A stretch of 64,000 nt of DNA, from contig NZ_CP088017.1 of NCBI RefSeq assembly GCF_021049285.1, forward strand, positions 3,173,380 through 3,237,379, in the 5' to 3' direction. Source of the stretch: Ruania halotolerans. GTDB taxonomy: Bacteria > Actinomycetota > Actinomycetes > Actinomycetales > Beutenbergiaceae. How positions within the stretch are numbered: position 1 is the stretch's first letter; each line of letters starts with the position of its first letter. The position numbers and the translations under genes were made by a program. This document shows, piece by piece, positions 7,073 to 39,045 of the stretch. Below the pieces are notes generated by a model that saw only the letters and a program-made list of their open reading frames with translations, was not told the DNA's origin and made no database searches.

Positions 7073-7128
7073 CGAGTACGGCGCTTCTCGCCCACCGAGT
7101 GAGACGTGGCCGAGATCGGACGCACTCG
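7073..7128 (-). repeat. 56-bp nested inverted-repeat element, copy 1
   Basis: Read on the minus strand this matches the elements at 20538-20593 (42/56 identities) and 38990-39045 (38/56). It begins CGAGTGC and ends GTACTCG. It holds an outer stem, a middle stem TCTCG/CGAGA and an inner stem CTCAC/GTGGG with a wobble pair. It fills the gap between convergent ilvA and tetR genes, so it may also act as a bidirectional terminator. Confidence 0.75.
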
Positions 7129-7144
7129 ATGACCCGGCGCTGCG

Positions 7145-7891
7145 TCAGGACAGGGTCGCGAGTCCGTCCAGGATGAGCTCGAGCCCGAACTCGTACGCAC
7201 GATCGGCGTCGTAGGCCGAGCCCTGGGTGGCGCCGGCCGTCGAGCCGATCCGGGTGGCCAGAGGATACTGAGCCGGGTCGATCACCTGTGCCAGCAACGG
7301 ACCGTTCGCGGCCCACCAGTGGGCGTCATCCATCCCGGAGGTGGCCACGGCCTGCGCGGCGCGCCGTGAGGCACGGGCCTGCTCCCGCACGAAGGAAAGC
7401 ACGAGCGTGCGGGCATGGTCGGTGGACAGATCGTCGAGTCCGAGCGGGATGAAGGCACCCAGCTCCCACTCGTAGGCGGCGATTCCGCCCGGACCGAGCG
7501 AGGGCCGGTTCAGTGCCTCCGCGTCTGCCAACCAACGGTGTGCCGAGACCATCGCACGGTGGGTATCGGCCACGATCCGCACCCGCGAGCGCCAGCCCAC
7601 GTTCCCCCACTCCCGGGCCGGCAGCTCGGCCAGCACGGCATCGACCATGAGAGCCAGTAGTCCCTCCTTGTCCGGAACGTGTGTATATACCGACATCGGA
7701 GCAATGCCCACACGTCGGGCGAGAGCGCGCACGGTCAGCGATTCGGCACCGTGCTGATCGGCCAGTTCGATCCCTGCGCGCACCAGGTCGCTCACCGAGC
7801 GGGAAGGCGCCGGACCTCGACGGCGGGACGCCGGAACGGACTCGCGCCACAGCAGGGCAAGCAGACGGTCCGGCTCCGGTTCGGGACTCAT
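7145..7891 (-). CDS. TetR family transcriptional regulator
   Basis: DNA-binding repressor of 248 residues from the chosen ATG. The helix-turn-helix is ESLTVRALARRVGIAPMSVYTHVPDKEGLL, split here as LTVRALARRVG and MSVYTHVPDKEGLL, at about residues 50-80. The rest is an all-helical ligand domain of the TetR_C type, in which a WxxHxxx-like region and DDLS loop are seen. The frame stays open upstream to a TTG at 7921, but that start would lie at the edge of the palindromic operator and has no ribosome site; GTG at 7909 is another option. It diverges from the VOC gene across a 25-bp palindrome, so autorepression and control of the VOC gene are the simplest model. Confidence 0.88.
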   Translation of the reverse strand: MSPEPEPDRLLALLWRESVPASRRRGPAPSRSVSDLVRAGIELADQHGAESLTVRALARRVGIAPMSVYTHVPDKEGLLALMVDAVLAELPAREWGNVGWRSRVRIVADTHRAMVSAHRWLADAEALNRPSLGPGGIAAYEWELGAFIPLGLDDLSTDHARTLVLSFVREQARASRRAAQAVATSGMDDAHWWAANGPLLAQVIDPAQYPLATRIGSTAGATQGSAYDADRAYEFGLELILDGLATLS

Positions 7892-7921
7892 GGGAATACA
7901 TTCTGGCACTCGCTCGTTCAA

Positions 7922-7946
7922 TATCTACGTACGCTGTACATAGATA
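7922..7946. promoter_or_regulatory. Palindromic operator for the divergent TetR regulator
   Basis: Arms ATCTACGTAC (7923-7932) and GTACATAGAT (7936-7945) match at 9 of 10 positions around a 3-bp spacer, with one more pair outside. It sits directly upstream of the ribosome site (AGGAG, 7946-7950) of the VOC gene and of the tetR start region. Confidence 0.7.
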
Positions 7947-7955
7947 GGAGATCAC

Positions 7956-8348
7956 ATGGCGATCACCGCCACCGCCCTGTCCCTGAACGTCGCCGACGAG
8001 GCCGCCTCAGCCGCATGGGCCACGCGCCACCTCGGCTTCGCCGAACAGATGTCTGCCGACGGGTTCGTCTCACTGACCCACACCGAGAGCGAGTTGAACC
8101 TGGTCTACTTGCGCACCGGTCTGTCCACGTTCAAGCCGAGTTCCGCTGCCGGGCATGCTGACGGCCTGCTAGTGGTGTTCGTGGTGGACGACATTGACGC
8201 CGAATACGCGCGCCTGCAGTCCGAGGGCGTCCGGATCGTCACCCCGATCGAGACCGAACCCTGGGGAGAGCGGTATTTCCAGATGGCCGACCCGAATGGG
8301 GTCATCTACCAACTGGTGCAGTGGGTAGAGGCGCCTTCCGAAGGCTGA
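7956..8348 (+). CDS. VOC (glyoxalase/bleomycin-resistance) family protein
   Basis: Small cytosolic protein of 130 residues made of two beta-alpha-beta-beta-beta modules. Visible features are LNVADEAASAAWATRHLGF in the first module and VVDDIDAEYARLQSEGV followed by WGERYFQMADPNGVIYQLVQW in the second, the usual VOC ending. The family covers metal-dependent dioxygenases, lyases and drug-binding proteins, and the substrate cannot be assigned. It is divergent from a TetR gene and preceded by a clear palindrome and an AGGAG five bases before ATG, so it is probably induced by the ligand of that regulator, perhaps as a detoxification or resistance protein. Confidence 0.88.
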   Translation: MAITATALSLNVADEAASAAWATRHLGFAEQMSADGFVSLTHTESELNLVYLRTGLSTFKPSSAAGHADGLLVVFVVDDIDAEYARLQSEGVRIVTPIETEPWGERYFQMADPNGVIYQLVQWVEAPSEG

Positions 8349-8363
8349 TGGCCGACGGCGGCC

Positions 8364-8378
8364 CTCGCCCAGGGCGAG
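8364..8378 (+). terminator. Hairpin after the VOC gene
   Basis: CTCGCCC and GGGCGAG pair perfectly around one base, 15 bp after the VOC stop. An alternative pairing CCCAGGG (8368) with CCCTGGG (8388) overlaps it. There is no U-tract, as usual in high-GC actinobacteria. Confidence 0.45.
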
Positions 8379-8396
8379 CACATCTCACCCTGGGCG

Positions 8397-8402
8397 TAGG
8401 GT
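8397..8402 (+). promoter_or_regulatory. Candidate -10 box of the SRPBCC gene (leaderless)
   Basis: TAGGGT followed by seven bases and ATG 8410. Confidence 0.4.
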
Positions 8403-8409
8403 CACCGGT

Positions 8410-9042
8410 ATGGGGAACCGGGGGATCTATGTGGAGATCCATGTGCAGGCGCCGATGGATCAGGTCTGGAATCTGAGCCAGGATCCTGCGCAGCACTCGC
8501 GGTGGGATCTGCGGTTCTCCTCGATCACTCCCACAACCCCCACCGTCGATGGAGCGATGCGCTTCACCTATACCCGTCGCACGCCGTTGCGCACTGTGGC
8601 CGGCGATGGGATCAGCATCGGTGAGCACCGCCGCCGGGACGGCACCCGCACCTCGGCGCTGCGCTTCGCCACGACGGACCGCCTCTCTCCGATCCGATCC
8701 GGGCGCGGGTACTGGCGTTACGTACCCACCGACACGGGCGTGCGGTTTCTCACTGGATACGACTACGAGCCAGGCTGGGGCCGCCTGCTGGACCGGCTCG
8801 TCCGGCCCTTGCTCGGTTGGGCGACGGCCTGGAGCTTCGACCGATTGCGGATCTGGGCCGAACGCGGCGAGGCACCGGAAGAGTGGCCGATCCACAGCGT
8901 GCTGTGGTTCTGGCGCCCGGACCGGCCCCGTGCGCGAGAGTGTCTGCGCGCACCACGCGGCGGCCGCCGTCGGGACGATCATTTACGGGCGGCGCCCAGA
9001 ACTCTCGCCGCACTTCGCAATCCGGAAGGAGACCATTCGTGA
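8410..9042 (+). CDS. SRPBCC (START-like) family protein
   Basis: Predicted soluble 210-residue protein with a hydrophobic ligand pocket. The start YVEIHVQAPMDQVWNLSQDP is the standard first strand and helix of polyketide-cyclase/SRPBCC proteins, then comes a beta-sheet region and a long C-terminal helix (RLLDRLVRPLLGWATAWSF). The last 30 residues are arginine- and proline-rich and look disordered. The stop overlaps the GTG of the following DUF4166 gene by 4 bp, so the two proteins are made together. No catalytic residues can be named and the ligand is unknown. Confidence 0.82.
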   Translation: MGNRGIYVEIHVQAPMDQVWNLSQDPAQHSRWDLRFSSITPTTPTVDGAMRFTYTRRTPLRTVAGDGISIGEHRRRDGTRTSALRFATTDRLSPIRSGRGYWRYVPTDTGVRFLTGYDYEPGWGRLLDRLVRPLLGWATAWSFDRLRIWAERGEAPEEWPIHSVLWFWRPDRPRARECLRAPRGGRRRDDHLRAAPRTLAALRNPEGDHS

Positions 9043-9707
9043 CGTCGATCTTCGCCCGCGCCATGGGTGCCGAGTTCGACCGACTACACCCGATGATGCA
9101 GCGACGCTTCGGTGTGGGCCTGGACTCCGGGCAAGCATGTACGGGGCGCGGGGTGATGTGGGAGGTTCGCCGCGGACCGTGGTGGACGGTGCCGTTCCTT
9201 CAAATCGGAAGGCTGCGGAACATCCTGGTGCCGGACGTGGGAACACTGGTGCCCTTCACAGTGGAGAACTACCCCTATCGCGACCCATTCGGCCGCGAGA
9301 CGGTCACCGTGGTCCGCGAGTACGCGATTGGCGGCAAGCAGCGGCGCTTCGACGCCACGATGACCCTGGCCGACGGCGCCATCGTGGACTACCTCGGCAC
9401 GCACCAGCACCTCGCAGTGGACCTGGACCTTCATGCCGATGATCGCGGCGGGCTGGTGCTCACCTCGGACGCGCAGCGGTTCTATGCCGGGCCGATCGGG
9501 TTCACGTTCCCGATGCTGTTCAGCGGTCGCGCCCGCCTGCGCGAGTGGTATGACGACGACGAGCAGCAGTTCCACATCGACCTGCGGGTGGTGAACTCGG
9601 TGTTCGGTTTCCTATTCGGGTACCGCGGCGCCTTCACCTGCGAGTGGACGCCCGCGGACGAGGCGCCGGACCGGCTCAAGCCGGTGCGCCATGAGCGCCG
9701 CACGTGA
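9039..9707 (+). CDS. DUF4166 domain protein
   Basis: A 222-residue protein of the DUF4166 family, often found fused or adjacent to saccharopine-dehydrogenase-like or SRPBCC proteins; function not established. The opening IFARAMGAEFDRLHPMMQRRFG and the closing segment VVNSVFGFLFGYRGAFTCEW are the typical conserved ends. GTG 9039 is chosen because it is preceded by GGAAGGAGA and overlaps the previous stop as GTGA; the same frame is open further upstream but only in the shadow of the SRPBCC gene. No signal peptide or membrane segment. Convergent with the LysR gene 30 bp away. Confidence 0.82.
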   Translation: MTSIFARAMGAEFDRLHPMMQRRFGVGLDSGQACTGRGVMWEVRRGPWWTVPFLQIGRLRNILVPDVGTLVPFTVENYPYRDPFGRETVTVVREYAIGGKQRRFDATMTLADGAIVDYLGTHQHLAVDLDLHADDRGGLVLTSDAQRFYAGPIGFTFPMLFSGRARLREWYDDDEQQFHIDLRVVNSVFGFLFGYRGAFTCEWTPADEAPDRLKPVRHERRT

Positions 9708-9737
9708 ACCGCACAGGTCCCCACGTGCTCCGCGAAG

Positions 9738-10628
9738 TCACCGCACCTGGTCGGGCGGTGTCATGTCCTCCACGCGGGCGAGGAATGCCCGGGCCGCAGG
9801 GCTCGGGTTGAAATCGCTCCAGGCGAGGTATTCGGAGCGCGCCGGTCCATCGACCACGGGGACTGTGGCAAGCCCGGGATCCTCCGGCACGAACCGCGAG
9901 GGGAGAAAGGTGATCGCGAGGTTCGCCCGGACCAGGGCCATCATCAAGTCGGTAGCCATCACCTCGAATGCGACGTGGCGCTCCAGGCCAGCCGCTTCGA
10001 AGGCGAGATCGCTCTGCGCCCGACCCGGCGTCCCCGAGGGAAAGTCGGCGAAGACCTCACCCACGAGTTCGCTGAGCCGAAGGCACTGAGCGTCCGCCAA
10101 CGCGTGTTCCCGGGGCAAGACGATCACAAGGCGGTCCGATCCCAGCAGCCGCCATGCCACTCCCTTCGGGTCCTGCCCGTCAGGCAACCCCAGGAAACCG
10201 ACGTCGATGGTGCTTCGCGCGATCGACGTCTGGAGTACGTCGCTGGCGGCAACCCGCATCGTGATCCCCACCTCGGGGTGTGCGCGATGGAATGCCGCGA
10301 GCACCCGGGGCACGTCAATGGCAGTCACGGTGGGGATGACCCCGACGGTCAGTCGACCACGGACCTGTCCGGCAGCCGCCGATGCCTCCGCTGCCGCACG
10401 TTCGGCCGCCTCCAGGCTCGCCCGTGCAGCCGGGAGGAAGGCCGCGCCAGCAGGAGTCAGCTCGACCCGCCGACTTGTCCGGGCGAACAGCCGCACGCCC
10501 AGTTCCGCTTCCAGCGCCTTCACCTGGTGGCTGAGTGCGGACTGCACCACGAAGCACTTCGCAGCAGCGCGCGTGAAGTTGGACTCTTCGGCGACCGCCA
10601 CGACGTAGCGGAGTTGCTGCAGTTCCAT
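9738..10628 (-). CDS. LysR family transcriptional regulator
   Basis: A 296-residue regulator. The N-terminal winged helix runs MELQQLRYVVAVAEESNFTRAA and continues through AAKCFVVQSALSHQVKALE, then the periplasmic-binding-like effector domain starts near residue 90 (GRLTVGVIPTVTAID). ATG 10628 is chosen over an upstream in-frame start because LysR proteins begin directly at this helix. It diverges from an EamA transporter gene over 79 bp that contain a T-N11-A dyad, the normal LysR arrangement, so it probably activates the transporter and the reductase behind it. The effector is unknown. Confidence 0.92.
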   Translation of the reverse strand: MELQQLRYVVAVAEESNFTRAAAKCFVVQSALSHQVKALEAELGVRLFARTSRRVELTPAGAAFLPAARASLEAAERAAAEASAAAGQVRGRLTVGVIPTVTAIDVPRVLAAFHRAHPEVGITMRVAASDVLQTSIARSTIDVGFLGLPDGQDPKGVAWRLLGSDRLVIVLPREHALADAQCLRLSELVGEVFADFPSGTPGRAQSDLAFEAAGLERHVAFEVMATDLMMALVRANLAITFLPSRFVPEDPGLATVPVVDGPARSEYLAWSDFNPSPAARAFLARVEDMTPPDQVR

Positions 10629-10643
10629 TGATCTATCTTCTCC

Positions 10644-10658
10644 ATCGATTGATGCGAT
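10644..10658. promoter_or_regulatory. Candidate LysR-box in the divergent promoter region
   Basis: ATCG and CGAT flank a 7-bp centre, and T10645 to A10657 gives the T-N11-A spacing of LysR sites. It lies just upstream of the lysR start. Confidence 0.45.
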
Positions 10659-10707
10659 GACAACCATGTGTTGGACTCATTGGTGATCGGGATCGCACCA
10701 TGGGTTC

Positions 10708-11622
10708 GTGACCACCACAACGACGCCCCTCCCAGCCGTGAGCTCGCAAGCGGGATTGATCGCACGGACGGCGCTCGCGCCCGCTGTCTGGGGTACGACC
10801 TACCTCGTCACCACCGAGCTACTCCCCGCGGGCCACCCGTTGTTCGCGGCGCTGATGCGCGCCCTTCCGGCTGGACTGCTCGCGCTCGCTCTCACGCGCA
10901 CGCTGCCCCGCGGCACGTGGCTCTGGAAAGCGGTAGTACTGGGCACGCTCAACATCGGTGCGTTCTTTCCGCTGCTGTTCGTCACCGCCGAGCGCCTGCC
11001 CGGGGGCGTGGCGGCCACCCTCGGGGCCATTCAACCGATTCTCGTCACCTTCCTGGTGATCGGTGTGCTCGGCGAACAGCTTTCTCGATGGCGGCTGGGC
11101 TGGGGAATCGTCGGCGTTCTTGGCGTCGGCCTGGTGGTCCTCGGCCCGGAAGCGGCACTCGACCCACTCGGGATCCTCGCCGGGATCGCCGGGGCTGCGT
11201 CGATGAGCCTGGGCGTCGTGCTCACCAAGCGCTGGGGCCGCCCACCAGGTGTCGGTCCGCTCGCCCTCGCCGGATGGCAGCTCGGCGCGGGCGGCATCGT
11301 TCTGCTGGTGCCGACCCTCCTCGTGGAGGGAGTGCCCGCCCAGATCGATGGGCCGGCAGTGGCCGGCTACTTGTGGCTCGGCCTGGTGGGAGGACTGCTC
11401 GCATACGGACTCTGGTTTGCGGGAATCCGCCAGCTTCCCGTGACGGCGACCGCCCTGCTGGTGCTGCTCTCTCCTCTGGTCGCGGCGGTACTCGGCGCGC
11501 TCCTGATCGGCGAGCGGCTCACCCCGGCCCAGGGGATCGGTTTCGCTCTGGCGCTGGCCGCGATGGTCGCCGGACAGCTCGCACCAGGACAACGTACACC
11601 TCACCGACAGACGAAGGACTGA
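10708..11622 (+). CDS. EamA (DMT superfamily) transporter
   Basis: Inner-membrane carrier of 304 residues with about ten hydrophobic segments arranged as two EamA repeats: the first includes VWGTTYLVTTELLP and LFVTAERLPGGVAATLGAIQP, the second starts near residue 155 and has GLLAYGLWFAGIRQLP. Family members export metabolites such as amino acids, purines or dyes; the substrate is not visible. The GTG start follows the divergent LysR gene region. The next gene starts two bases after the stop, so the transporter and an NAD(P)-binding protein form one unit under probable LysR control. Confidence 0.88.
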   Translation: MTTTTTPLPAVSSQAGLIARTALAPAVWGTTYLVTTELLPAGHPLFAALMRALPAGLLALALTRTLPRGTWLWKAVVLGTLNIGAFFPLLFVTAERLPGGVAATLGAIQPILVTFLVIGVLGEQLSRWRLGWGIVGVLGVGLVVLGPEAALDPLGILAGIAGAASMSLGVVLTKRWGRPPGVGPLALAGWQLGAGGIVLLVPTLLVEGVPAQIDGPAVAGYLWLGLVGGLLAYGLWFAGIRQLPVTATALLVLLSPLVAAVLGALLIGERLTPAQGIGFALALAAMVAGQLAPGQRTPHRQTKD

Positions 11623-11624
11623 TC

Positions 11625-12266
11625 GTGATCATCGCCGTCTTCGGCGCCACCGGCACTGCCGGTAGCGCCGTCACCTCCGAAGCGCTCTCTCGGGGGCACC
11701 ACGTCATCGCTGTTTCCCGCACCCCTGGACGGGACTCGGCACAACTCAGCTGGCGGAGCATCGATCTTGACGCAGGGGAGAAGCTCGAGCCGATCCTGGC
11801 GCACACCGATGTCGCGGTCCTCACCGTCCGGCCAGATCCGGGTCAGGAACACCGGATCGTGCAGTGGACGTCGACATTCCTTGATGCGGCGGCTGCCACC
11901 GAAACGAGGGTCATCGTGATCGGCGGTGCCGCTGCCCTCCGCACTCCCGGCAGCACGCAGACCCTCGTCGCCGACGACCCCGCGTACGTCGCACCGCAGT
12001 GGGCATCCGTGGCGCGTGCCAGCCTCGAGCAGTTCCGTGCCTGCGTCCGCCACTCCTCCTCGCGATGGACGTACCTGAGCCCGCCGGCCATCCTGGAACC
12101 AGGCCCGGGCGCCGGTACCTATCGCCGAGGTACCACGCGGCTTCTCACCAACGCCGACGGCGTCTCACAGATCACCGCCGGTGACCTCTCGCTCGCCGTG
12201 CTCGACGAGGTGGAGAGCCCCCAGGGTGACCAGCACTTCACCGTCTGCGCAGCCGATCCGCCCTAG
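11625..12266 (+). CDS. NAD(P)-binding oxidoreductase (atypical SDR, NmrA/YwnB-like)
   Basis: A 213-residue single-domain Rossmann protein. IIAVFGATGTAGSAV at the N-terminus is the GxxGxxG dinucleotide motif; the order of strands and a C-terminal segment with AGDLSLAVLDEVE fit atypical short-chain dehydrogenases that bind NAD(P)H as reductase or redox sensor. No classic YxxxK catalytic pair is evident. GTG 11625 is preceded by AGGA and lies two bases after the EamA stop, so it is co-expressed with the exporter. Substrate unknown. Confidence 0.8.
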   Translation: MIIAVFGATGTAGSAVTSEALSRGHHVIAVSRTPGRDSAQLSWRSIDLDAGEKLEPILAHTDVAVLTVRPDPGQEHRIVQWTSTFLDAAAATETRVIVIGGAAALRTPGSTQTLVADDPAYVAPQWASVARASLEQFRACVRHSSSRWTYLSPPAILEPGPGAGTYRRGTTRLLTNADGVSQITAGDLSLAVLDEVESPQGDQHFTVCAADPP

Positions 12267-12287
12267 TGGTGCCCGAATGCACAGCAG

Positions 12288-12313
12288 GTTCGGCGCGGGA
12301 TTTCACGCCGAAC
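12288..12313 (+). terminator. Hairpin between oxidoreductase and CYTH genes
   Basis: GTTCGGCG (12288-12295) and CGCCGAAC (12306-12313) pair perfectly over 8 bp around a 10-base loop, 22 bp after the oxidoreductase stop. Confidence 0.5.
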
Positions 12314-12326
12314 GGCCAGCACGGCG

Positions 12327-12332
12327 TAGCGT
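12327..12332 (+). promoter_or_regulatory. Candidate -10 box of the CYTH gene (leaderless)
   Basis: TAGCGT followed by seven bases and ATG 12340. The AGGAG two bases from the ATG is too close to serve as a normal ribosome site, which favours a leaderless start. Confidence 0.4.
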
Positions 12333-12339
12333 AGGAGCC

Positions 12340-12978
12340 ATGAGTGAGGCCGGATACGGCGACTTCGAGTTCGAGCGCAAGTTCTTCGTGCGCTCCTTGC
12401 CCACCGACCTGTGGGACGAACCTGCGCCGGATGTGATCGTGCAGTCCTACTTCCTCGCCTCCGAGGGGTACGCCCTGCGGGTGCGACTGCAAGCTCCTGC
12501 ACCCGCAGCGCTGGTGGGCAGGGCTGGCGACCTCGATGCCGGGACCGTCCTGAACGAATTGTCCGGGCAGTGGGAGCTGTGCACTCTGACCGCCAAGGGC
12601 CCGGCCGCCGGCGGTACCCGCTACGAGGCCGAGCGGGAGCTTGACCCCATCGTGGCCGAGGAGATGGTGCGCCGCGGTGGTGCGAAGGTGATCAAACTGC
12701 GCCATGCGATCTGGCTCGGTGAGGACGGCTGGGTACTGGACCAGTTCCTGGGCACCAATGCGCCCCTGGTGATCGCCGAGTGTGAGCGGGAGAGCCCGGT
12801 CACGGACCTGACCATCCCGGCCTTCTGCGCCACGGAGATCTCCGATGACGCCCGCTTCGCCAACGAGCAGCTGGCCGCCCGCCCGTACTCGGCGTGGTCG
12901 CGTCAGTTCAAGAGCGAGCTGGCTACCAGCGGCCCCCGTTACCTGCAAACGTTCGGGCCCAACACCTCCGGCCACTGA
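12340..12978 (+). CDS. CYTH domain protein (triphosphate tunnel metalloenzyme)
   Basis: A 212-residue cytosolic protein. The N-terminal FEFERKFFV carries the ExExK signature of the CYTH/triphosphate tunnel family, whose bacterial members hydrolyse inorganic triphosphate or nucleoside triphosphates in a beta-barrel lined with charged residues. Paired Arg/Lys/Glu strands (YALRVRLQ, CTLTAKGPA, YEAERELD, VIAECERES) are present. The exact substrate is not known. The frame is open further upstream, but ATG 12340 begins right before the signature strand and has a leaderless-type promoter. It stands alone between deoC and the EamA unit. Confidence 0.88.
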   Translation: MSEAGYGDFEFERKFFVRSLPTDLWDEPAPDVIVQSYFLASEGYALRVRLQAPAPAALVGRAGDLDAGTVLNELSGQWELCTLTAKGPAAGGTRYEAERELDPIVAEEMVRRGGAKVIKLRHAIWLGEDGWVLDQFLGTNAPLVIAECERESPVTDLTIPAFCATEISDDARFANEQLAARPYSAWSRQFKSELATSGPRYLQTFGPNTSGH

Positions 12979-13071
12979 CCCTCACCGGGGCACGTTGGCG
13001 GGCATTCGCGGCCTGATCTCCGGCCACCACCTTGCCGACACGACCCTGCCCTCTGCCCGGGGTGCCACGTC

Positions 13072-13077
13072 TACACT
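13072..13077 (+). promoter_or_regulatory. Candidate -10 box of deoC (leaderless)
   Basis: TACACT followed by seven bases and ATG 13085; the best-matching -10 box among the leaderless candidates here. Confidence 0.5.
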
Positions 13078-13084
13078 CGAGAGC

Positions 13085-14158
13085 ATGACTGCGATGTCCC
13101 CTGCGCCCCCTACCGAGCCGGTGCGCTCAACCAGTCCGGTGCGCTCGAGCAGCGGCGGCACCCACCCGGCCGCCCGCACGGCGGACCAGGTCGCGGCAGA
13201 CGCGAGCGCCGTCGTCGGATCAGCCGATCTCAGCAACGGTGCCCTGCGCACGTTCCTCCACGGCCTTCCGGGCGTGGACAAGGTCGGCCTGGATGCTCGT
13301 GCGGCCACTCTCGGGACCCGGTCGATCAAGACGACCGCCAAGGCATGGGCGTTGGACACGATCATCTCGATGATCGACCTGACCACCCTCGAAGGTGCCG
13401 ACACCCCCGGCCGGGTGCGCTCCCTCGTCGCCAAGGCACGCACCCCCGAACCGGCCGATCCCAGCTGCCCCCGGCCGGCCGCCGTCTGCGTGTACGGGGA
13501 CATGGTGACTGTGGCCAAGGAGGCCCTGGGGTCGTCCTCGGGAATCAACGTCGCCGCCGTGGCGACGGCGTTCCCCGCCGGGCGAGCGGGCCGCACCGCC
13601 CGGATCGCCGACACCACCGACGCCGTGAAGGCCGGCGCCGAGGAAATCGACATGGTGATCGACCGCGGCGCGTTCCTTTCTGGCCACTACCGGAAGGTGT
13701 TCGACGACATCGTCGCCGTCCGGGAGATCTGCCAGCAGCGCACCGGTGAGCCAGCGCACCTGAAGGTGATCCTGGAGACCGGCGAACTCGCCACCTACGA
13801 CAATGTGCGCCGCGCCTCCTGGCTGTCGATGCTGGCCGGAGCTGACTTCATCAAGACCTCGACCGGGAAGGTCTCCCCCGCCGCCACCCTGCCAGTGACA
13901 GTGCTCATGCTGGAGGCGGTGCGAGACTTCCTCGCGGCCACCGGCGTCCACGTAGGAGTCAAGCCGGCCGGTGGGATCCGTACCTCGAAGGATGCGATCA
14001 AGTACCTGGTGGCCGTGAACGAAGTGGCCGGGGAAGCCTGGCTGGAGCCGGAGTTCTTCCGGTTCGGCGCCTCATCCCTGCTCAATGACGTGCTGCTGCA
14101 GCGGCAGAAGCTCAGTACGGGCGCCTACTCCGGCCCCGACTATGTGACGATCGACTAG
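13085..14158 (+). CDS. deoC: Deoxyribose-phosphate aldolase, long eukaryote-like form
   Basis: Class I aldolase splitting 2-deoxyribose-5-phosphate into acetaldehyde and glyceraldehyde-3-phosphate. The Schiff-base lysine is Lys257 in ADFIKTSTGK and the second active lysine Lys293 in VKPAGGIRT. At 357 residues it is much longer than E. coli DeoC (about 260); the extra N-terminal region (first about 35 residues low-complexity Ser/Pro/Thr, then a helical segment with VGLDARAATLGTRSIKTTAKAW split by GL and TR motifs) and the C-terminal YVTID match the DERA type found in animals and some actinobacteria. The start has a leaderless -10 box. Two aldehyde dehydrogenase genes follow, an obvious sink for the acetaldehyde. 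Confidence 0.93.
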   Translation: MTAMSPAPPTEPVRSTSPVRSSSGGTHPAARTADQVAADASAVVGSADLSNGALRTFLHGLPGVDKVGLDARAATLGTRSIKTTAKAWALDTIISMIDLTTLEGADTPGRVRSLVAKARTPEPADPSCPRPAAVCVYGDMVTVAKEALGSSSGINVAAVATAFPAGRAGRTARIADTTDAVKAGAEEIDMVIDRGAFLSGHYRKVFDDIVAVREICQQRTGEPAHLKVILETGELATYDNVRRASWLSMLAGADFIKTSTGKVSPAATLPVTVLMLEAVRDFLAATGVHVGVKPAGGIRTSKDAIKYLVAVNEVAGEAWLEPEFFRFGASSLLNDVLLQRQKLSTGAYSGPDYVTID

Positions 14159-14173
14159 AAGGCAGCGACACTG

Positions 14174-16503: not shown

Positions 16504-16523
16504 GGCCCGGTTCCGGTGTGATT

Positions 16524-16560: not shown

Positions 16561-16563
16561 GGC

Positions 16564-19200: not shown

Positions 19201-19331
19201 ATACCCGCGATGCACGCGGGCGGACTTCTGGTCGCTTCTGGTCGCTGAAACGACCGCAACTCCGCCCCCGATGAACCACCCGCCACCGAAGTCCGCCCGG
19301 GGCGGTCTGAGGTCAGGCCATAAGTCCGCCC
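19201..19331. repeat. Intergenic cluster of GGGCGGACTT motifs
   Basis: Part of a 326-bp gap without a gene. The 10-mer GGGCGGACTT occurs at 19218 on plus and at 19289 and 19322 on minus, giving inverted arrangement, and CTTCTGGTCG is repeated in tandem at 19225-19244. The same 10-mer and the CTGAAACGA string recur in the intergenic cluster at 39.6 kb. Confidence 0.7.
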
Positions 19332-20518: not shown

Positions 20519-20537
20519 GCCCGCACTCGACCACCCT

Positions 20538-20593
20538 CGAGTGCCCGAGATCTCGGCTATATCTCACACCATGAGCGAGATGGGCCGCACTCG
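20538..20593 (+). repeat. 56-bp nested inverted-repeat element, copy 2
   Basis: CGAGTGC at 20538 and GCACTCG ending at 20593 form the outer stem; TCTCG (20551-20555 region) pairs with CGAGA, and CTCA with TGAG around the centre. In this copy CCGAGATCTCGG is also a perfect palindrome. It lies upstream of add and downstream of the DUF202 pair. Identity to copy 3 is 42/56. Confidence 0.8.
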
Positions 20594-20608
20594 CGCAGGG
20601 AGGGGGAG

Positions 20609-20935
20609 TTAGCTGAACAGGTTCACCAGTGCGAGCAGCAGGCCCAGGCTGCCGAGCACCACCACGGAGATGCAGGTCATCTGCAGTACGGTCCACCGGG
20701 CCCGCGCGTGCGGGCCCCACTGGCGCAGGCTGCGCAGCACCAGAACGAGCAAGGCAAACGCCGTGAGTGCGGCGATCGCGGCGATCAGGGGATGCTCCAG
20801 CCGCTGAGCGGTGATCGAGACGACCAGCGTGCCCAGAGTCACCGAGAGCACCGTACGGTGCCAGGACAGCATCGTGCGCTGCGGCTGTGCGCCGGTATCG
20901 CCATCCAGCCCTGCGGTGGTCACCGGAGGGCTCAC
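20609..20935 (-). CDS. DUF202 small membrane protein (second of pair)
   Basis: A 108-residue membrane protein with three hydrophobic segments (about residues 27-43, 48-66 and 84-106) and the DUF202 signature of an RTxLSWxRTxLS type near the first helix (RTMLSWHRTVLS). The family (YidH-like) has no settled function. GTG 20935 overlaps the stop of the preceding DUF202 gene by 3-4 bp. Two divergent DUF202 paralogues in one unit suggest a hetero-oligomer. Confidence 0.85.
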   Translation of the reverse strand: MSPPVTTAGLDGDTGAQPQRTMLSWHRTVLSVTLGTLVVSITAQRLEHPLIAAIAALTAFALLVLVLRSLRQWGPHARARWTVLQMTCISVVVLGSLGLLLALVNLFS

Positions 20936-27629: not shown

Positions 27630-27641
27630 CTGCGGTCGTGA

Positions 27642-28809: not shown

Positions 28810-28860
28810 GACCCGCTCTGCGGCTCCTGTGTTACATGGTGAGATACCTGCCCGGAGTTG

Positions 28861-30150: not shown

Positions 30151-30166
30151 CGGCCGCCATGGAGCC

Positions 30167-31258: not shown

Positions 31259-31264
31259 CGGCTC

Positions 31265-31270
31265 AGCCTA
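31265..31270 (-). promoter_or_regulatory. Candidate -10 box of manC (leaderless)
   Basis: TAGGCT on the minus strand, six bases before GTG 31258. Confidence 0.45.
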
Positions 31271-31278
31271 ATCACACC

Positions 31279-32361: not shown

Positions 32362-32431
32362 GGCTCCAGCATGTCGAACCCAGCCCGACGGCGCACCTCT
32401 GGATCCGGATGCATATCAGGTGGGGTGGCCC

Positions 32432-33040
32432 TCAGGAGGTGAGCACGTAGGTGCTCACGTCACGCCAGACGCCGTCCTCGCCGTGCTCATACAGGCAGAA
32501 GTGCGCGACAGGGAAGACGGCGTCGAAAGTGCGCATGTCCCGCGAGGCGGCGTCGAGGGCTGCTTCGTCCACCTCGTGGGCGAGGGTGACGTGCGGATGG
32601 TACGGAAAACGTAAGTCCTGCTGCACCGGCCCACCGTTGACGGCTGACTGCAGCCGGCCGCACTCGGCGATACCGGCCACGACCCGCACGAAGACCACCG
32701 GGGAGATCGGACGGAAGGTGTCCGTTCCGCTCAGCTCCACCACGAACGGGCGCTGCCCGGCTGCGATGCGGCTCAGATGGTGATGGACGTCGGCCAGTTC
32801 CTCCGCCGAGATATCGGTGGGCGGCAGCAGCGTGATGTGCGGCGGGATCGCATAGGCGAGCGGATCCTGGGCATCAATCCGGGCCCGCACCAGGCTCGCG
32901 GCATACGGCTCGGGAATCGGGATCGCCACACCGATGCGGACCGTGCTCGCGGCCCCCTCGCGGGAGCGCACAGCCGCGTCCACGCGGGAATCGGCGCTCG
33001 TGGGCACCGATGGCGCGCCGCGCATCATTGCGCGCTCCAT
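32432..33040 (-). CDS. 2H phosphoesterase / 2'-5' RNA ligase family protein
   Basis: Small cytosolic protein with the two HxT motifs of the 2H superfamily: PPHITLLPP and YHPHVTLAHEV, about 85 residues apart. Members hydrolyse or form 2'-5' or cyclic phosphodiester bonds in RNA or nucleotides, but the bacterial substrate is generally unknown. The chosen start, ATG 33040, gives about 202 residues and is preceded by AGGGG; the frame also opens at 33103 and at a later ATG. The first 35 residues look disordered. The 134-197 bp to galT contain a 7-bp hairpin CGCTCGG/CCGAGCG but no gene. Confidence 0.82.
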   Translation of the reverse strand: MERAMMRGAPSVPTSADSRVDAAVRSREGAASTVRIGVAIPIPEPYAASLVRARIDAQDPLAYAIPPHITLLPPTDISAEELADVHHHLSRIAAGQRPFVVELSGTDTFRPISPVVFVRVVAGIAECGRLQSAVNGGPVQQDLRFPYHPHVTLAHEVDEAALDAASRDMRTFDAVFPVAHFCLYEHGEDGVWRDVSTYVLTS

Positions 33041-33224
33041 CGGTCCGGCCCCTGCGAGGACTTCATCGTCGTATTGTGCCTCACCTTGCTGCAGGCTCTG
33101 CACATTCCAGGCATGGGCCGGAAGCGCTCATCGACGCGGCGGCCGCTCGGCTCCGGCGTCCTGCCGAGCGCTCACGGGACGCTCGGTGATGTGTTTTTGT
33201 GTGCGAACTCGTGCACTCCTGTGA

Positions 33225-33230
33225 CAGACT
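33225..33230 (+). promoter_or_regulatory. Possible -10 box of galT
   Basis: CAGACT followed by seven bases and GTG 33238. The first base departs from TANNNT, so this is weaker than the other leaderless candidates. Confidence 0.3.
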
Positions 33231-33237
33231 GGTCGAC

Positions 33238-34443
33238 GTGAGTGACCTCCCCGCCTTGACCACCACGCAGGTGCGCCGCACGCCCACCACCCTCGCCGAC
33301 GGTCGCGACCTCTTCTACTACGACGACTCCCTGCCGTACGTCACCGGTGAACGGACCCGGCGCCTGGACGACCCGCGCCCGCTACCGGACCGGTTCGCCA
33401 CGGTCGAGGCCGAGGATGGCAGTGCCCAGCCCGTCACGGGTCCCGAGATGCGCTACGACGTGCTCACTGGTGAGTGGGTCCCGATGGCCGCGCACCGGAT
33501 GAACCGCACCTTCCTGCCCGGGCCGGACACGAACCCGCTGGCCCCTGCGAAGCCTGGCGCCGCGTACACCGACGGCGAGATCCCGGCCACCGACTATGAC
33601 GTGGTGGTGTTCGAGAACCGGTTCCCTTCCCTGATGCGGGTGCCTGGAACACCCGATGAGGTCACCCCTCTGGATGGCGACGACCTCTACCCGGTTCGCC
33701 CCGCCGTCGGACGGTGCGAGGTGATCTGCTTCTCCCCGGACGCCGACGCGTCACTGAGCACGGTGAGCCCCACGCGGATGCGCACCATCGTCGAGGCGTG
33801 GGCTGATCGCACCGCCGCGCTCGCGCGGATCGACGGCGTGGAGCAGGTGTACTGCTTCGAGAATCGTGGCGCCGAGATCGGCGTGACGTTGCACCACCCG
33901 CACGGGCAGATCTACGCCTACCCGTTCCTCACCCCGAAGACCGAGACGATGCTCCGGCAGGCGCGCACGCACCGCGAGCGCACCGGAAAGAACCTGCTGC
34001 GGGAGGTGCTGGACGCCGAACTCGCCTCGGGCCGGCGCATCGTGGCCGAGAGCGAGCACTGGGTGGCCTACGTGCCTGCGGCGGCGCGCTGGCCCGTGGA
34101 GGTGCACGTGGCACCACGCCGGGACGTGCCCGATCTGCCCGCCACCACTGATGCCGAGCGCACCGATTTCGCCGAGTTGTATCTGAGCCTGCTGTCGCGG
34201 TTGGACCAGTTCTTCGTCGACTCCGACGGCGCTGCGATGCCCTTGCCGTACATCTCCGGATGGCACCAGGCACCAGTACACCAAGGCAGGGATGACCTGC
34301 GCCTGCACCTGCAGTTGTTCTCGATCCGCCGCGCGCCGGGCAAACTGAAGTTCCTCGCCGGGTCCGAGTCGGGCATGGGTGCCTGGATCTCCGACACCAC
34401 GCCCGAGCGCATCGCCGACCGCCTGAAGGAGATCCACCCGTGA
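33238..34443 (+). CDS. galT: Galactose-1-phosphate uridylyltransferase
   Basis: Leloir pathway enzyme exchanging galactose-1-phosphate with UDP-glucose; 401 residues. The active-site motif HHPHGQIYAYPF carries the nucleophilic histidine; FENRGAEIG before it and VHVAPRR and SGWHQAPVHQG after it are the conserved nucleotide and metal sites. GTG 33238 is chosen over the upstream open frame because TSS-like spacing (CAGACT then seven bases) fits and the first conserved residues follow. The stop overlaps galK (GTGA), so the two genes are one translationally coupled unit. Confidence 0.94.
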   Translation: MSDLPALTTTQVRRTPTTLADGRDLFYYDDSLPYVTGERTRRLDDPRPLPDRFATVEAEDGSAQPVTGPEMRYDVLTGEWVPMAAHRMNRTFLPGPDTNPLAPAKPGAAYTDGEIPATDYDVVVFENRFPSLMRVPGTPDEVTPLDGDDLYPVRPAVGRCEVICFSPDADASLSTVSPTRMRTIVEAWADRTAALARIDGVEQVYCFENRGAEIGVTLHHPHGQIYAYPFLTPKTETMLRQARTHRERTGKNLLREVLDAELASGRRIVAESEHWVAYVPAAARWPVEVHVAPRRDVPDLPATTDAERTDFAELYLSLLSRLDQFFVDSDGAAMPLPYISGWHQAPVHQGRDDLRLHLQLFSIRRAPGKLKFLAGSESGMGAWISDTTPERIADRLKEIHP

Positions 34444-35636
34444 CCGACGTGGTGACTGCCTGGACCGATGATGAGGGTGCCGCGCACGCGCGCGCACTGT
34501 TCGCCGAGATGTTCCCCGACCACAGGCCCGACGGCGTGTGGTCTGCCCCGGGCAGGGTGAACCTGATCGGCGAGCACACGGACTACAACGGCGGCCTGGC
34601 TCTGCCCATCGCCCTGCCACACCGCACGTATGTGGCACTTCGCCGCCGCGATGACGGCGCGATCCGGTTGATCTCCGGCCGCGAGTCGGGCGCCTGGGAG
34701 ACCTCGCTCGACCAGATCGACCCTGGGGCCGTCAGCGGCTGGGGCGCCTACCCGGCTGGGGTGGCCTGGGCGCTGGAACAACTCGGTCATGCCGTGGGCG
34801 GCTTCGATGCCGCCGTGGCCAGTTGCGTGCCGTATGGGTCCGGGCTGAGTTCGTCGGCGGCATTGGAGTGCGCGTTCGCGGTGGCATTTGCTGCAGCCCC
34901 GGGCTGGACCGGTCCGGACGCAGCAACGGACCAGGGGCGCGTGCAGCTGGTGACTGCGTGTATCCGCGCCGAAAATGAGATCGCCGGAGCGAACACTGGC
35001 GGGATGGACCAGGCGGCGTCCTTGCGCAGCCAGGAGGGGCACGCCCTGCTGCTGGATTGCCGGGATGGCAGCATTCGGCACATCCCCTTCGACCTGGCCG
35101 CCGCCGGGCTCGAACTGCTGGTGATCGACACTAAGGCCGAGCACTCGCACGTGGACGGGCAGTACGCGCAGCGGCGCGCCACCTGTGAGGCAGCGGCGCA
35201 GACGCTGGAGGTGGCGACGCTGCGGGAGATCTCGCCGGACCGGCTGGACGGTGCACTGGCGGCGTTGCAGACGGACGAGGCGCGCAAGCGAGTGCGGCAC
35301 GTGGTGACCGAGATCGGCCGGGTCAAGCAGTTCGTCGAGCTGCTCGATTCCGGGCGGGTGCGCGAGGTGGGTCCATTGATGGACGCCTCGCACGCCTCAC
35401 TGGCCGAGGATTACGAGGTCTCCTGTGCAGAACTCGACGTGGCCGTGACCGCGGCGCGGGCAGCAGGTGCGCTGGGGGCCAGGATGACCGGCGGCGGATT
35501 CGGCGGTTCAGCGATCGCACTGATCGAGGCAGGGACGAGCACGCAGGTCTCCGCCGCGGTGAAGCTGGCGTTCACAGAAGCGGGCTTCGGCGCCCCCGCG
35601 TTCCTCACAGCGATCGCGTCCCGACCAGCGCACTGA
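34440..35636 (+). CDS. galK: Galactokinase
   Basis: GHMP kinase phosphorylating galactose at C1 with ATP; 398 residues. The galactokinase signature GRVNLIGEHTDYNGG, the ATP loop PYGSGLSSSAALE and the C-terminal MTGGGFGGSAIAL are all intact. GTG 34440 overlaps the galT stop. No galE or galactose transporter is adjacent, so UDP-galactose epimerase must be elsewhere. The following 164 bp before the convergent xth gene hold a short hairpin TGAGCA/TGCTCA (35710-35726) and no supported gene. Confidence 0.95.
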   Translation: MTDVVTAWTDDEGAAHARALFAEMFPDHRPDGVWSAPGRVNLIGEHTDYNGGLALPIALPHRTYVALRRRDDGAIRLISGRESGAWETSLDQIDPGAVSGWGAYPAGVAWALEQLGHAVGGFDAAVASCVPYGSGLSSSAALECAFAVAFAAAPGWTGPDAATDQGRVQLVTACIRAENEIAGANTGGMDQAASLRSQEGHALLLDCRDGSIRHIPFDLAAAGLELLVIDTKAEHSHVDGQYAQRRATCEAAAQTLEVATLREISPDRLDGALAALQTDEARKRVRHVVTEIGRVKQFVELLDSGRVREVGPLMDASHASLAEDYEVSCAELDVAVTAARAAGALGARMTGGGFGGSAIALIEAGTSTQVSAAVKLAFTEAGFGAPAFLTAIASRPAH

Positions 35637-35800
35637 CCTGCTGGCTTCTCACTCGCAGAATCGCTCGTCGATGGGCTCACCGCATGGCCAGGGCTTTCGA
35701 TCCGCAGGGTGAGCAATATCTGCTCAATCCGTAGGTCAAGGATCACACCGTAGGCGACCACCACCTCAGCGAGCGCAGGGCTGCCTGCCTGCGAGCCTTG

Positions 35801-36634
35801 TCAGGAGTACGTCACGCGCAACGGCGCGTGATCGGAGATGCGCTGGTCATACGCCGGCGCCCGATCCACCATCGCCTCAGTAGCGCGCCCGGCCAAGGCC
35901 GGGCTGGCGAACTGGTAGTCGATCCGCCACCCGGAGTCGTTGTCGAAGGCCTTCCCGCGCCAGGACCACCAGGTGTACGGCCCGTCCACGTCTCCGGCGA
36001 ACTGCCGCCCCAGGTCCACCCAGCCGTGCTCGGCGGTCCATTGGTCCAGATAGGCGCGCTCCTCGGGCAAGAACCCGGCGCTCTTGCGGTTGCCCTTCCA
36101 GTTCTTGATGTCGCGCTCGGTATGCGCGATGTTCACGTCCCCGCCCACGACGGCGGCCCTGCCCTGCGCAGCCAACTCACCCATCCGGGCGGTCACCTTG
36201 TCCAGGAAGGCGTACTTCTCCTCCATCGATGGCGTCCCCACCGTGCCGGAGTGGATGTAGGTGGAGATGACGGTCAGCGGTGTCCCCGCTCCTCCATCGG
36301 CGTGGCTCGCCATGATGTCCGCCTCCACCCAACGACCCACCTCGCCATCGGCCCGGGTGGCGGGATCTCCCACACCCAGCCGGACGCCGTCGAACGGGAT
36401 GCGGGAGGCAATGGCCACCCCGGCGCGCCCCTTGGCGGCCGATTCCTCATGCGCGAGGTGCCACCCCTCGCCGAGGAAGCCCTGCAGGATCTCATCCGTG
36501 GCGCGGACCTCCTGCAGGAGCAGCACATCGGGTGCGGCGGAAGTGAGCCACTCACCCATCCCGCGCCGGAACGCGGCCCGGATTCCGTTGACGTTGAAGG
36601 TGGCAATGCTGAATGTGGTGGAAGAAGACGACAT
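35801..36634 (-). CDS. xth: Exodeoxyribonuclease III (AP endonuclease)
   Basis: DNA repair nuclease of 277 residues in the endonuclease/exonuclease/phosphatase fold. Motifs in order: ATFNVNGIRA (metal Asn), LLQEVRA (metal Glu), STYIHSGT, VGGDVNIAH (catalytic Asp/Asn), DIKNWKGNR and the C-terminal RIDYQFAS and SDHAPLRV with the catalytic Asp-His pair. It would process abasic sites and blocked 3' ends in base excision repair. It stands alone, convergent with galK; ATG 36634 has a TGGGAT six bases upstream, which might be a weak leaderless box. Confidence 0.94.
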   Translation of the reverse strand: MSSSSTTFSIATFNVNGIRAAFRRGMGEWLTSAAPDVLLLQEVRATDEILQGFLGEGWHLAHEESAAKGRAGVAIASRIPFDGVRLGVGDPATRADGEVGRWVEADIMASHADGGAGTPLTVISTYIHSGTVGTPSMEEKYAFLDKVTARMGELAAQGRAAVVGGDVNIAHTERDIKNWKGNRKSAGFLPEERAYLDQWTAEHGWVDLGRQFAGDVDGPYTWWSWRGKAFDNDSGWRIDYQFASPALAGRATEAMVDRAPAYDQRISDHAPLRVTYS

Positions 36635-36712
36635 GCCGCCATCCCATCACGGGGCACCGACACCCATGTCAACCAGACACCGGGCCACCGGGCCAGTCCG
36701 TGTCAATCTGTG

Positions 36713-38941
36713 TCAGTCCTGCGGCACCCGCTTCGCCCACGGCCACCAGGTGCGGCGGCCCAGATCGTGCACCAGCCCCGGCACCAGCAGGCTGCGCACC
36801 ACGAAGGTGTCGATCAGCACCCCCACTGCCACGATGAAGGCGAGCTGGGCGAGGAAGAGCAGCGGGATCACCCACAGCGCGGAGAATGTGGCGGCCAGCA
36901 CCAGACCGGCCGAGGTAATCACTCCGCCGGTCACCGCGAGCCCCTTGCGCACACCCGGCCGGGTACCGAGTTGCACCGACTCCTCCCGCACTCTGGTCAT
37001 CAGGAAGATCGAGTAGTCGATCCCGAGTGCCACGAGGAACACGAACCCGTACAACGGCACGGTCGCATCCGCGCCAGGGAAGTCGAGTATGTGGTTGAAC
37101 ACCAGAGCCGCCAGGCCCATGGTCGCAGCGAAGGAGAGGACGTTCGCGGCGAGCAGCACCAGTGGCGCCACCACGGCGCGCAGCAGCAGGGCCAGCATGA
37201 GCGCGATCACGACGAGCACCACCGGGATGATCGTGCGCAGGTCCCGCTCGGCGGTCTCCTGGGTGTCCAGGCGTTGGGCGGCCTCCCCACCCACAAGAGT
37301 CTCGCCCGCCACCTCACCCAAGGCACTGCGCAGGTCTGCCACCGTGCTCAGCACCGCCTGACTCTCAGCGGAGTCCTCGGTGGTCACCTCCACCAGCACC
37401 CGGCCGTCGACCACCAGCACCTCCCCCTCGCCAGGGCCACTCTCGCCGTCGCGGACCACGGAGGCCGCAGTGACGCCGTCGACGTCCTCAGCTGCGGCGA
37501 TCACGGCGTCCGCCTCCCCCTGCGGCACCACCACCTCGATCGGCTGCACGGTGCCCACCTCGAAGTGCGCGGCGAGTACCTCCTCACCCGCCACGGATTC
37601 GGTCTCGTTGAGGAACACATCGGTGTCGCTGGTTCCCTCGGCCTGGAAGGTCGTCGCAAACCCGGCAAGAATCAGGAGCACGACGGCGGTGCTCACCCAG
37701 ACCGTGCGCGCTCGCGTGGTCACGACGTTCGCGACCGTGCTCCAGATGCCATGACTCTCGGCCTTGACGTGCTTGCCGGCCGAGTCCGAGGCCGCTGCGG
37801 GAGCGGCATCGTCGGGGACGTACCGGGGGCGACTCGGCCAGAAGACCGCGCGTGAACGCGAGCCGAGCACCAGCAGCAGCGCTGGAAGCAGGGTGAGGGC
37901 CCCGCAGACCGCGGCCGCGATGCCGATCGCGGCCACCGGGCCGAGGCTGGCGTTCGAGCCGAGGTCGGAGAGCAGCAGGCAGAGCAGTCCCACGATCACC
38001 GTGCCGGCGCTGGCCGCGATCGGTTCCAGCGTGGCGCGCCAGGCCACCTTCATCGCCGCGGCCGGGTGCTGATGCCGGGTGAGCTCCTCGCGATACCGGG
38101 CCACCAGCAACAACGAGTAGTCGGTGGCCGCACCGATGACCAGGATCGAGAGGATGCCCTGACTCTGACCGTTCAACAGCAGCACATCACCTCCAGCCAG
38201 CGGCACGATCACCAGGGCTGCCAGACACAGCGAGAACACCGACGTCAGGATCACCGCGAACGGCAGCAGCGGCGAGCGGTACACGATCGCCAGGATCACC
38301 AGCACCACGGCGAGGGCGACGCCGAGCAGAATTCCGTCGATCCCAGCGAACGCAGAGACCAGATCGGCCACGCCGGCGGCGGGACCGGTTACCCAGCCGG
38401 CCAGGCCGGCATCAGCAAGCGTGGCACCCACTTCCGCGCGCAGGCGCTCCACGACGGCGGTCGAGACCCGCTCGTCATCCTCGCCGACGAGGTCGCTGGC
38501 CTGGGCAGCGTCCAAGGAGACCGGGAGCAGCGCCGCCGCACCGTCCTCGCTGGGAACGACCGGGACCTGCCCGGCAGTGAGGTAGTCGGCGATGCTCGCA
38601 CCTCCCGGCAGATCCAGCCCGGGAATGGACTCGGCGAACGCGCCGATCGTGGCGAAGTCCTCCTGGGTGAGATTCTCGCCGTCGGCGGCCTCGACCACGA
38701 GCAACGCAGGGAGGGACTCATCCACCGAGAACTCGGCAATCAGCTCACTGGCACGGGTGGACTCCGCACTCTCTGGCAGGAAGGCAGCCTGGTCGTTCTC
38801 CTGAACGCTTGAGAGGTTGCCCTGGGCCATCCCCCCAAAGCCGCCGATGGCGAGCCAGGCCACCAGCGCGAAGCCCACCACGAGGGATCGAACCAGCGCG
38901 GGTCGTCGACCACCGGCAGAGTTAGTCAGCATGCTGAGCAT
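36713..38941 (-). CDS. MMPL/RND family exporter
   Basis: Large inner-membrane transporter of about 742 residues with the RND layout: one helix, a periplasmic loop of about 120 residues, five helices, a cytosolic stretch, then the same again. Key helix motifs are GAATDYSLLLVARYREE in half 1 and ALGIDYSIFLMTRVREE in half 2, which carry the proton-relay Asp-Tyr pair of MmpL proteins. Such proteins export lipids or drugs. A divergent MarR gene 156 bp away makes a drug or envelope-stress efflux pump likely. ATG 38941 is preferred; ATG 38932 and TTG 38968 are alternatives and none has a clear ribosome site. Confidence 0.9.
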   Translation of the reverse strand: MLSMLTNSAGGRRPALVRSLVVGFALVAWLAIGGFGGMAQGNLSSVQENDQAAFLPESAESTRASELIAEFSVDESLPALLVVEAADGENLTQEDFATIGAFAESIPGLDLPGGASIADYLTAGQVPVVPSEDGAAALLPVSLDAAQASDLVGEDDERVSTAVVERLRAEVGATLADAGLAGWVTGPAAGVADLVSAFAGIDGILLGVALAVVLVILAIVYRSPLLPFAVILTSVFSLCLAALVIVPLAGGDVLLLNGQSQGILSILVIGAATDYSLLLVARYREELTRHQHPAAAMKVAWRATLEPIAASAGTVIVGLLCLLLSDLGSNASLGPVAAIGIAAAVCGALTLLPALLLVLGSRSRAVFWPSRPRYVPDDAAPAAASDSAGKHVKAESHGIWSTVANVVTTRARTVWVSTAVVLLILAGFATTFQAEGTSDTDVFLNETESVAGEEVLAAHFEVGTVQPIEVVVPQGEADAVIAAAEDVDGVTAASVVRDGESGPGEGEVLVVDGRVLVEVTTEDSAESQAVLSTVADLRSALGEVAGETLVGGEAAQRLDTQETAERDLRTIIPVVLVVIALMLALLLRAVVAPLVLLAANVLSFAATMGLAALVFNHILDFPGADATVPLYGFVFLVALGIDYSIFLMTRVREESVQLGTRPGVRKGLAVTGGVITSAGLVLAATFSALWVIPLLFLAQLAFIVAVGVLIDTFVVRSLLVPGLVHDLGRRTWWPWAKRVPQD

Positions 38942-38989
38942 TATCGGTAGGAAGGCTGCTTCGCGCAAGTGGTGGTCGCGGCAATGGAT

Positions 38990-39045
38990 CGAGTGTTGGA
39001 CTTCTCGGCTCTATCTCACAAGGTGAGCGAAAAGCAGCGCACTCG
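38990..39045 (+). repeat. 56-bp nested inverted-repeat element, copy 3
   Basis: CGAGTGT at 38990 and GCACTCG ending at 39045 form the outer stem; the inner stem CTCAC/GTGAG is perfect around a 3-base loop. Identical length to copies 1 and 2. It lies in the divergent promoter region between the MMPL and MarR genes, 52 bases before the MarR start, so here it could also affect transcription of both genes. Confidence 0.8.

Follow-up and report, generated by a model that had tools for sequence, protein, structure and literature searches.

Repetitive extragenic palindromes (REPs) with a GTAG tag are commonly regarded as passengers of the REP-associated tyrosine transposase (RAYT), and gyrase and IHF act on the bacterial interspersed mosaic elements (BIMEs) of Escherichia coli. 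The 64,000-nt stretch of Ruania halotolerans DNA analysed here (the window) contains three copies of a palindrome, the family of which we call f1 and compare with such systems. In our judgment f1 is probably a non-autonomous mobile palindrome similar to REPs or to Rickettsia palindromic elements (RPEs), whose inverted repeats are read by a protein; the strongest facts are an insertion at one site of the gene hrpA (site 2), constraint at 34 sites shared by two species, and a fixed orientation. In the part of the REP survey PMC3733652 that was available, tagged REPs lie behind stop codons, in convergent or same-direction gaps, with few in divergent gaps and some inside genes; REPs with a CGTC tag have no dedicated transposase and include coding insertions, and in recB two Xanthomonas species have different REPs at nearly the same position. 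The phyla listed there for GTAG repeats do not include Actinobacteria, a word absent from the main text in the same available part. REPs usually number over 100 copies per genome (PMC2817692), and a palindrome-count table (PMC12306157) includes three Actinomycetota genomes, these two sources being likewise available in part.

Like the REPs and REPINs of the GTAG super-family that are accompanied by RAYT, f1 is a dispersed palindrome found directly behind stops, rarely in divergent gaps and sometimes inside genes, but it differs from them in having no GTAG tag, no Y1 match in the genome containing the window (G000) or in a second species of the genus (G004), a longer core, and about 45 copies, the 44 firm places of G000 falling below the usual REP number. 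CGTC REPs and RPEs are likewise found in frame in genes (including RNA helicase genes) with no dedicated transposase known, and the two REPs at about the same recB site resemble what is seen with f1 and a second family, f2, at another site of hrpA (site 1); f1, however, has no CGTC tag, and f2 has CCGTC within its stem only. BIMEs may be compared with f1 in their location behind transcription units and in the potential to be read by a DNA-binding protein. Intrinsic terminators share the hairpin near a stop codon, but f1 differs in having no conserved T-tract, in the conservation of its bases across copies, and in its divergent and intragenic copies. In its placement f1 matches the REPs described in the literature; it lacks both the tag and RAYT, however, and for this reason we have not filed it as a REP. 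A literature search joining repetitive extragenic palindromic, Actinobacteria and RAYT found nothing; the Ruania genome papers among those listed include none on repeats, as judged by title and start of abstract, and f1 is not known from any earlier report within the literature searched.

The core of f1 is 56 bp long and often followed by CG, with an outer inverted repeat CGAGTGC...GCACTCG and an inner repeat CTCA...TGAG. An earlier note on this DNA had described the 56-bp stretch, which we now recognize as the core of a longer unit: a box CCGCACTCG located 8 nt before the core and G-rich positions starting 5 nt past it (CG plus 3 nt) are over-represented in both G000 and G004. Since the box is able to pair with the left arm, two hairpins (A-B and, with the box, U-A) compete for this arm. 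As seen from the column frequencies, the inner part of f1 is conserved in addition to its ends; neither these frequencies nor the alignment reveal an unpaired GTAG or CGTC tag at the ends of f1, and the flank columns that are conserved contain no run of T or A. Rfam yielded no f1 match at the gathering cut-off over the whole window, or at E up to 1 for copy 2, to which this looser search was confined.

With up to 3 mismatches allowed, a pattern search of the genome (4.27 Mb) recognizes 27 copies, 6 of them forward and 21 reverse, whereas a reversed control pattern has 0 matches. The covariance model built from these 27 copies gives 82 two-strand matches at E up to 1, which collapse to 45 places; with the weak place at G000 334299 (E 0.04) dropped from later counts there remain 44 firm places, three of which are the window copies, so that further genomic copies, the absence of which would have spoken against the earlier note, are present. 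At E up to 1e-6, 44 places are found in G004, one in the congener G006 and none in five other congeners. With stricter filters, 7 of 59 genomes (G000 included) match at 0.01, namely G000, G004, G006, G008 and three of genus g4, and none of the 35 genomes outside the family does. A looser pattern, run on a named genome collection that may omit near relatives of the window, returned 23 stretches, 21 of them from the metagenome-assembled genome 5_8_m_bin7 and the other 2 from Occultella aeris (Occultella and Ruania both belong to Ruaniaceae); no match was found among viral contigs. Over the first 1.63 Mb of contig C1 of G000, 18 of 23 f1 places (counting the weak one) are on the minus strand, with mixed orientation elsewhere.

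Direct indication of mobility comes from hrpA (a DEAD helicase with DUF3418), which contains two in-frame f1 copies in G000. At site 2 the element is present in G000 only, and all 11 other genomes (11/11) are without it; f1 therefore moves, and it was inserted here in the G000 lineage. Site 1, resolved in 8 of 12 genomes, contains f1 in G000 and G004, contains f2 in G001, G003 and G006, and is empty in G002, G005 and G007. A third intragenic copy, at G000 3846204, lies in a gene that is shorter in G002, G005, G007, G008 and G020; at its position G001, G003 and G006 have, by eye, yet another palindrome, with arms CGAACGCTGAGTT/AACTCAGCGTTCG in frame at L188, L187 and L186, respectively, and these arms recur elsewhere in G003. 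Two of the three intragenic f1 sites thus bear another family in sister species. The in-frame coding insertion with empty orthologs that characterizes RPEs is therefore found for f1 as well.

Outside genes, the G003 counterpart of the copy at G004 C2:1012294 is a clean empty gap of 4 nt, with the C-rich gene end present and both core and upstream box absent. In the last 15 coding bases the C content is 0.536 for the 26 gene ends no more than 12 nt from f1 (both species counted) and 0.511 for 6 element-free G003 orthologs, versus 0.342 in 903 G003 genes (P 0.001); these few cases suggest that f1 selects targets next to a G-tract on the element strand, and that the tract is older than the insertion. 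Other palindromes at f1 sites were recognized in 5 of 12 rows in G003 (two of the rows being one gap) against 2.66 expected, which is not convincing; three convergent f1 sites correspond to short G003 gaps (26, 28 and 4 nt) with no palindrome scoring at least 16, and two f1-bearing gaps were too diverged to align with their G000/G004 counterparts.

The second line of evidence derives from 34 copies of G000 and G004 that were paired by hand at the same sites, starting from protein matches. Identity between the two species is 0.966 in the 30 best-conserved columns (a value inflated by the fact that these columns were picked on the same copies), 0.891 in ten middling columns and 0.675 in eighteen variable ones, to be compared with 0.657 in the left flank, 0.607 in the spacer and, for the 111 flanking genes, 0.623 over 20,521 four-fold sites. 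About 30 bases of f1 have thus hardly changed over a period in which silent and flanking sites turned over; independently of column choice, 34 of 44 copies are still recognizable in the other species. In the variable columns orthologs are more alike (0.675) than paralogs (0.432), and since these columns retain the history of the site, a wholesale homogenization or overwriting of one unit by another is unlikely. In the variable stem of the orthologs, 44 of 70 single changes create or destroy a pair, and double changes that keep a pair occur at chance level (4 vs 2.67, P 0.28), as they do for the U-A hairpin (4 vs 2.38, P 0.20): between these orthologs the bases of f1 are constrained, and pairing is not.

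With respect to placement, genes over the f1 sites were called with our own simple caller, so that starts are especially uncertain. Of the 54 unique sites, 21 lie between convergent genes; both neighbouring genes run against the element at 20 sites and in its direction at 4; a further 5 are in divergent gaps and 3 inside genes, and at 1 no left gene was called. This preference for positions downstream of genes, in gaps of the convergent or same-direction type, is typical of REPs. A stop codon faces the right end of f1 at 41 of the 54 sites, at a distance of up to 60 nt in 36 of them. The orientation is clearly biased in same-direction gaps (20 vs 4, P 0.0015); for convergent gaps there is a non-significant tendency (P 0.058) for the right stop to lie nearer. 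The suggestion of a small family of REP type, or of miniature inverted-repeat transposable elements (MITEs), made in the earlier note, is supported by the 44 dispersed places, the coding-site insertion in a single genome and the REP-like placement.

We also searched for a mover. The RAYT-type transposase that the earlier note proposed to look for was not found: PF01797 (Y1/RAYT) has 0 matches in G000, G004 and six other congeners, and is present in 1 of 14 genomes (two matches, G008), 5 of 14 control genomes being positive. As PF01797 is missing from the f1 and f2 carriers of the genus, a RAYT origin of f1 was rejected. A right-half pattern with up to 3 mismatches gave 84 matches in G000 and G004, all of them, by eye, at mapped copies (the left half was not searched), and no transposase was recognized among the genes between close copies in G008, which were read by eye with no family search made. 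The longest word shared by the 20-nt flanks averages 3.72, versus 3.64 ± 0.09 for swapped flanks, and thus gives no sign of a target duplication, which may have decayed because most copies are old; CGCCAG flanks both sides of f1 at hrpA site 2, in a single case.

The rival with most to recommend it holds that the f1 hairpins act as RNA, as 3'-end stem-loops, kept by selection, that terminate transcription or else mark or protect the ends of mRNAs. Sites behind stop codons and between convergent genes are what one would expect of it, and over 88 copies both the A-B and U-A hairpins exceed shuffles (0-1 of 500) in paired cells, in double-changed cells and in the covariation score; these shuffles, however, ignore the relatedness of the copies, neither the number of pairs nor the pair types are above them, covariation is absent in the 27 copies alone, and compensation between orthologs is at chance. 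For the U-A hairpin, one slid control exceeds the structure in double-changed cells (66 vs 58). The excess of G-U over A-C wobbles (85 to 49) owes 25 of the 85 to one column pair, and the remainder (60 vs 49) favours neither strand. Since the orthologs keep bases and not pairs, the structured RNA offered in the earlier note as an alternative is not supported in the case of f1. To this must be added the divergent and intragenic copies, the lack of a conserved T- or A-run in the flanks, and the three short convergent gaps of G003 that do without a palindrome. The sister family f2 co-varies strongly (0.216 vs 0.138 ± 0.015 in 16 copies), which favours an RNA role, and what holds for f1 about bases and pairs therefore need not hold for f2. 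On balance we consider an RNA function of f1 unlikely, though it deserves to be kept in view.

The remaining rivals appear weaker. The inverted ends, dispersed copies and size of f1 would fit a MITE that has CGAGTGC/GCACTCG for its terminal repeats and a DDE-type transposon for its source; but the marks of such an element, a target duplication (unless decayed in old copies) and a parent, were not found, G000 and G004 have no solitary right halves able to frame a transposase gene, and the inner part is conserved too, so that this origin is improbable. It is somewhat less probable still that the arms are kept alike, free of selection, by template switching in imperfect palindromes, a mechanism that has been published (PMC8794818, available in part) and is not exclusive of the other accounts. 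Matching arm changes in perfect or near-perfect palindromes, both of G004 (2417650, 2440184, 535101) and of G008, speak for it; it would account for co-varying arms, but not for near-fixed bases beside turned-over flanks. Least probable, in our view very much so, is a non-mobile family of operators bound by one dedicated regulator: inverted repeats kept base by base in fixed positions are as expected for binding sites, but only 5 of 54 sites are in divergent gaps, the copies are located behind genes, and some are in frame in hrpA and a third gene.

According to the reading that we prefer, of f1 as a mobile palindrome read by a protein, a trans-acting enzyme would have moved the element, which would insert in one orientation, its right end near a G-rich tract, and would, for this reason, come to lie mostly directly behind the stops of C-rich gene ends and occasionally in frame in genes. 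After insertion f1 would be held by a DNA-binding protein that reads the inverted repeats, the candidates being the mover itself or a host protein acting behind transcription units. We infer this protein, and a job for f1, the former because bases rather than pairs are kept. Several points weigh against this reading. With no transposase, half-element or target duplication found, the mover is an assumption, and the reader protein is a putative one; a purely base-reading account does not need the arm covariation over all copies, where the two hairpins beat shuffles on three of five measures. Coding comparison dates just one insertion, that at hrpA site 2, to the G000 lineage, two further empty-site pairs align less cleanly than that of G004 C2:1012294 with G003, the G-tract test is built on 6 genes, and the identity of the conserved columns is inflated as described.

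Turning to the window itself, the three cores are at 7073-7128 (minus strand, copy 1), 20538-20593 (plus, copy 2) and 38990-39045 (plus, copy 3), and are paired with G004 C1:483765, C1:461719 and C1:437885, respectively. On recounting, the coordinates, strands, 56-bp lengths, gap-free alignment and identities (42, 42 and 38 of 56) of the earlier note were correct, as were its invariant blocks and the three differing gene contexts, which we derived from our own gene calls and Pfam. Copy 1 lies between convergent genes for a threonine dehydratase and a TetR regulator, with 3 nt separating its right end from the former's stop (5897-7069, plus). Copy 2 lies between two minus-strand genes, for a DUF202 protein (20609-20923) and an adenosine deaminase; the distance from its right end to the DUF202 stop is 15 nt. 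Copy 3 occupies the gap separating the divergent MMPL and MarR genes; the MarR frame might open farther upstream, at 38969, and would then traverse the element. Within the window the upstream box is kept only in copy 2 (20521-20529, plus, CCGCACTCG, complementary to the left arm CGAGTG); its place is decayed in copy 1 (7137-7145, minus, ACGCAGCGC) and in copy 3 (38973-38981, plus, TGGTCGCGG). The G-rich tract is seen on the right side of copies 2 (20598-20608, plus) and 3 (39053-39065, plus), and there is almost none in copy 1. The pattern CGAGTGN7TCTCGGCN4TCTCAC, with up to 3 mismatches, has 3 matches in the window versus a mean of 0.07 in 100 shuffles, none of which has 3 or more. The shared fold of the earlier note is confirmed in part: an optimum of outer and inner stems is obtained for copies 1 and 3, but copy 2 folds otherwise; the fold z-scores are weak (-2.0, -1.1 and -0.9 on the given strand; -0.6, -1.8 and -1.8 on the opposite strand).

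The f2 family, AACTGACGG...CCGTCAGTT around GTGCCATATCTGGCAC, has 50 two-strand matches in G003, 52 in G006, 42 in G001, 33 in G004, 6 in G002, 5 in G000, 1 in G005 and 0 in G007, with variants having other arms in G004, G002 and G005. No orientation bias is seen among 24 f2 sites examined in G003, of which 12 lie between convergent genes, 4 and 4 in the two kinds of same-direction gap, 2 in divergent gaps and 2 within genes; 3 of the 24 adjoin the same genes as f1 sites. Third and fourth palindrome families were recognized by eye. Over 1.2 Mb of G003 there are 91 long imperfect palindromes scoring at least 16, a number that includes ordinary terminators, versus about 3 as scaled from one 0.4-Mb shuffle; a word-sharing clustering of all G003 palindromes merged them into one group and was not used. 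The G008 copies that were read include several near-perfect palindromes of 80-84 bp (L123, L130 and other contigs), and several matches at contig ends suggest that palindromes break the assembly of this metagenome-assembled genome. A 142-bp palindrome at a G008 contig end, probably a fold-back artefact, and repeats at G004 contig starts, apparently redundant contig ends, were not used. In the window, a 50-bp palindrome GGGTGAAGTTGACGTC...GACGTCAACGTCACCC at 3401-3450 (plus), within the phosphoglucomutase frame 2256-4121, looks like a member of another genus-wide mobile family, as similar palindromes occur in G003 near 544412 and 625281. Three more long imperfect palindromes lie in gaps, centred at 19242, 19315 and 39706, the first and last of which have TTCTGGTCGCT in common and perhaps represent one more family. 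The window also contains two ZMP/ZTP riboswitches (Rfam RF01750, 58 bits each), at 41996-42082 (minus) and 54287-54380 (minus).

These results can be viewed in terms of what palindromes do in this genus. Because one hrpA position has f1 in two species and f2 in three, families may replace each other at the same landing places, and we offer as a tentative possibility that each Ruania clade has its own palindrome family and its own reading protein, that families swap at these places, and that, without RAYT, the installed repeats are retained base by base to serve some function behind transcription units. Several palindrome families exist here in genomes with no recognizable Y1 enzyme, in a phylum that the available part of the REP survey (PMC3733652) does not list, and one of them, f1, is conserved base by base at fixed sites. 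This makes f1 a tractable system for studying how untagged palindromes are moved and whether they serve their hosts, with the hrpA site that is empty, or filled by f1 or f2 according to clade, as a ready comparison.

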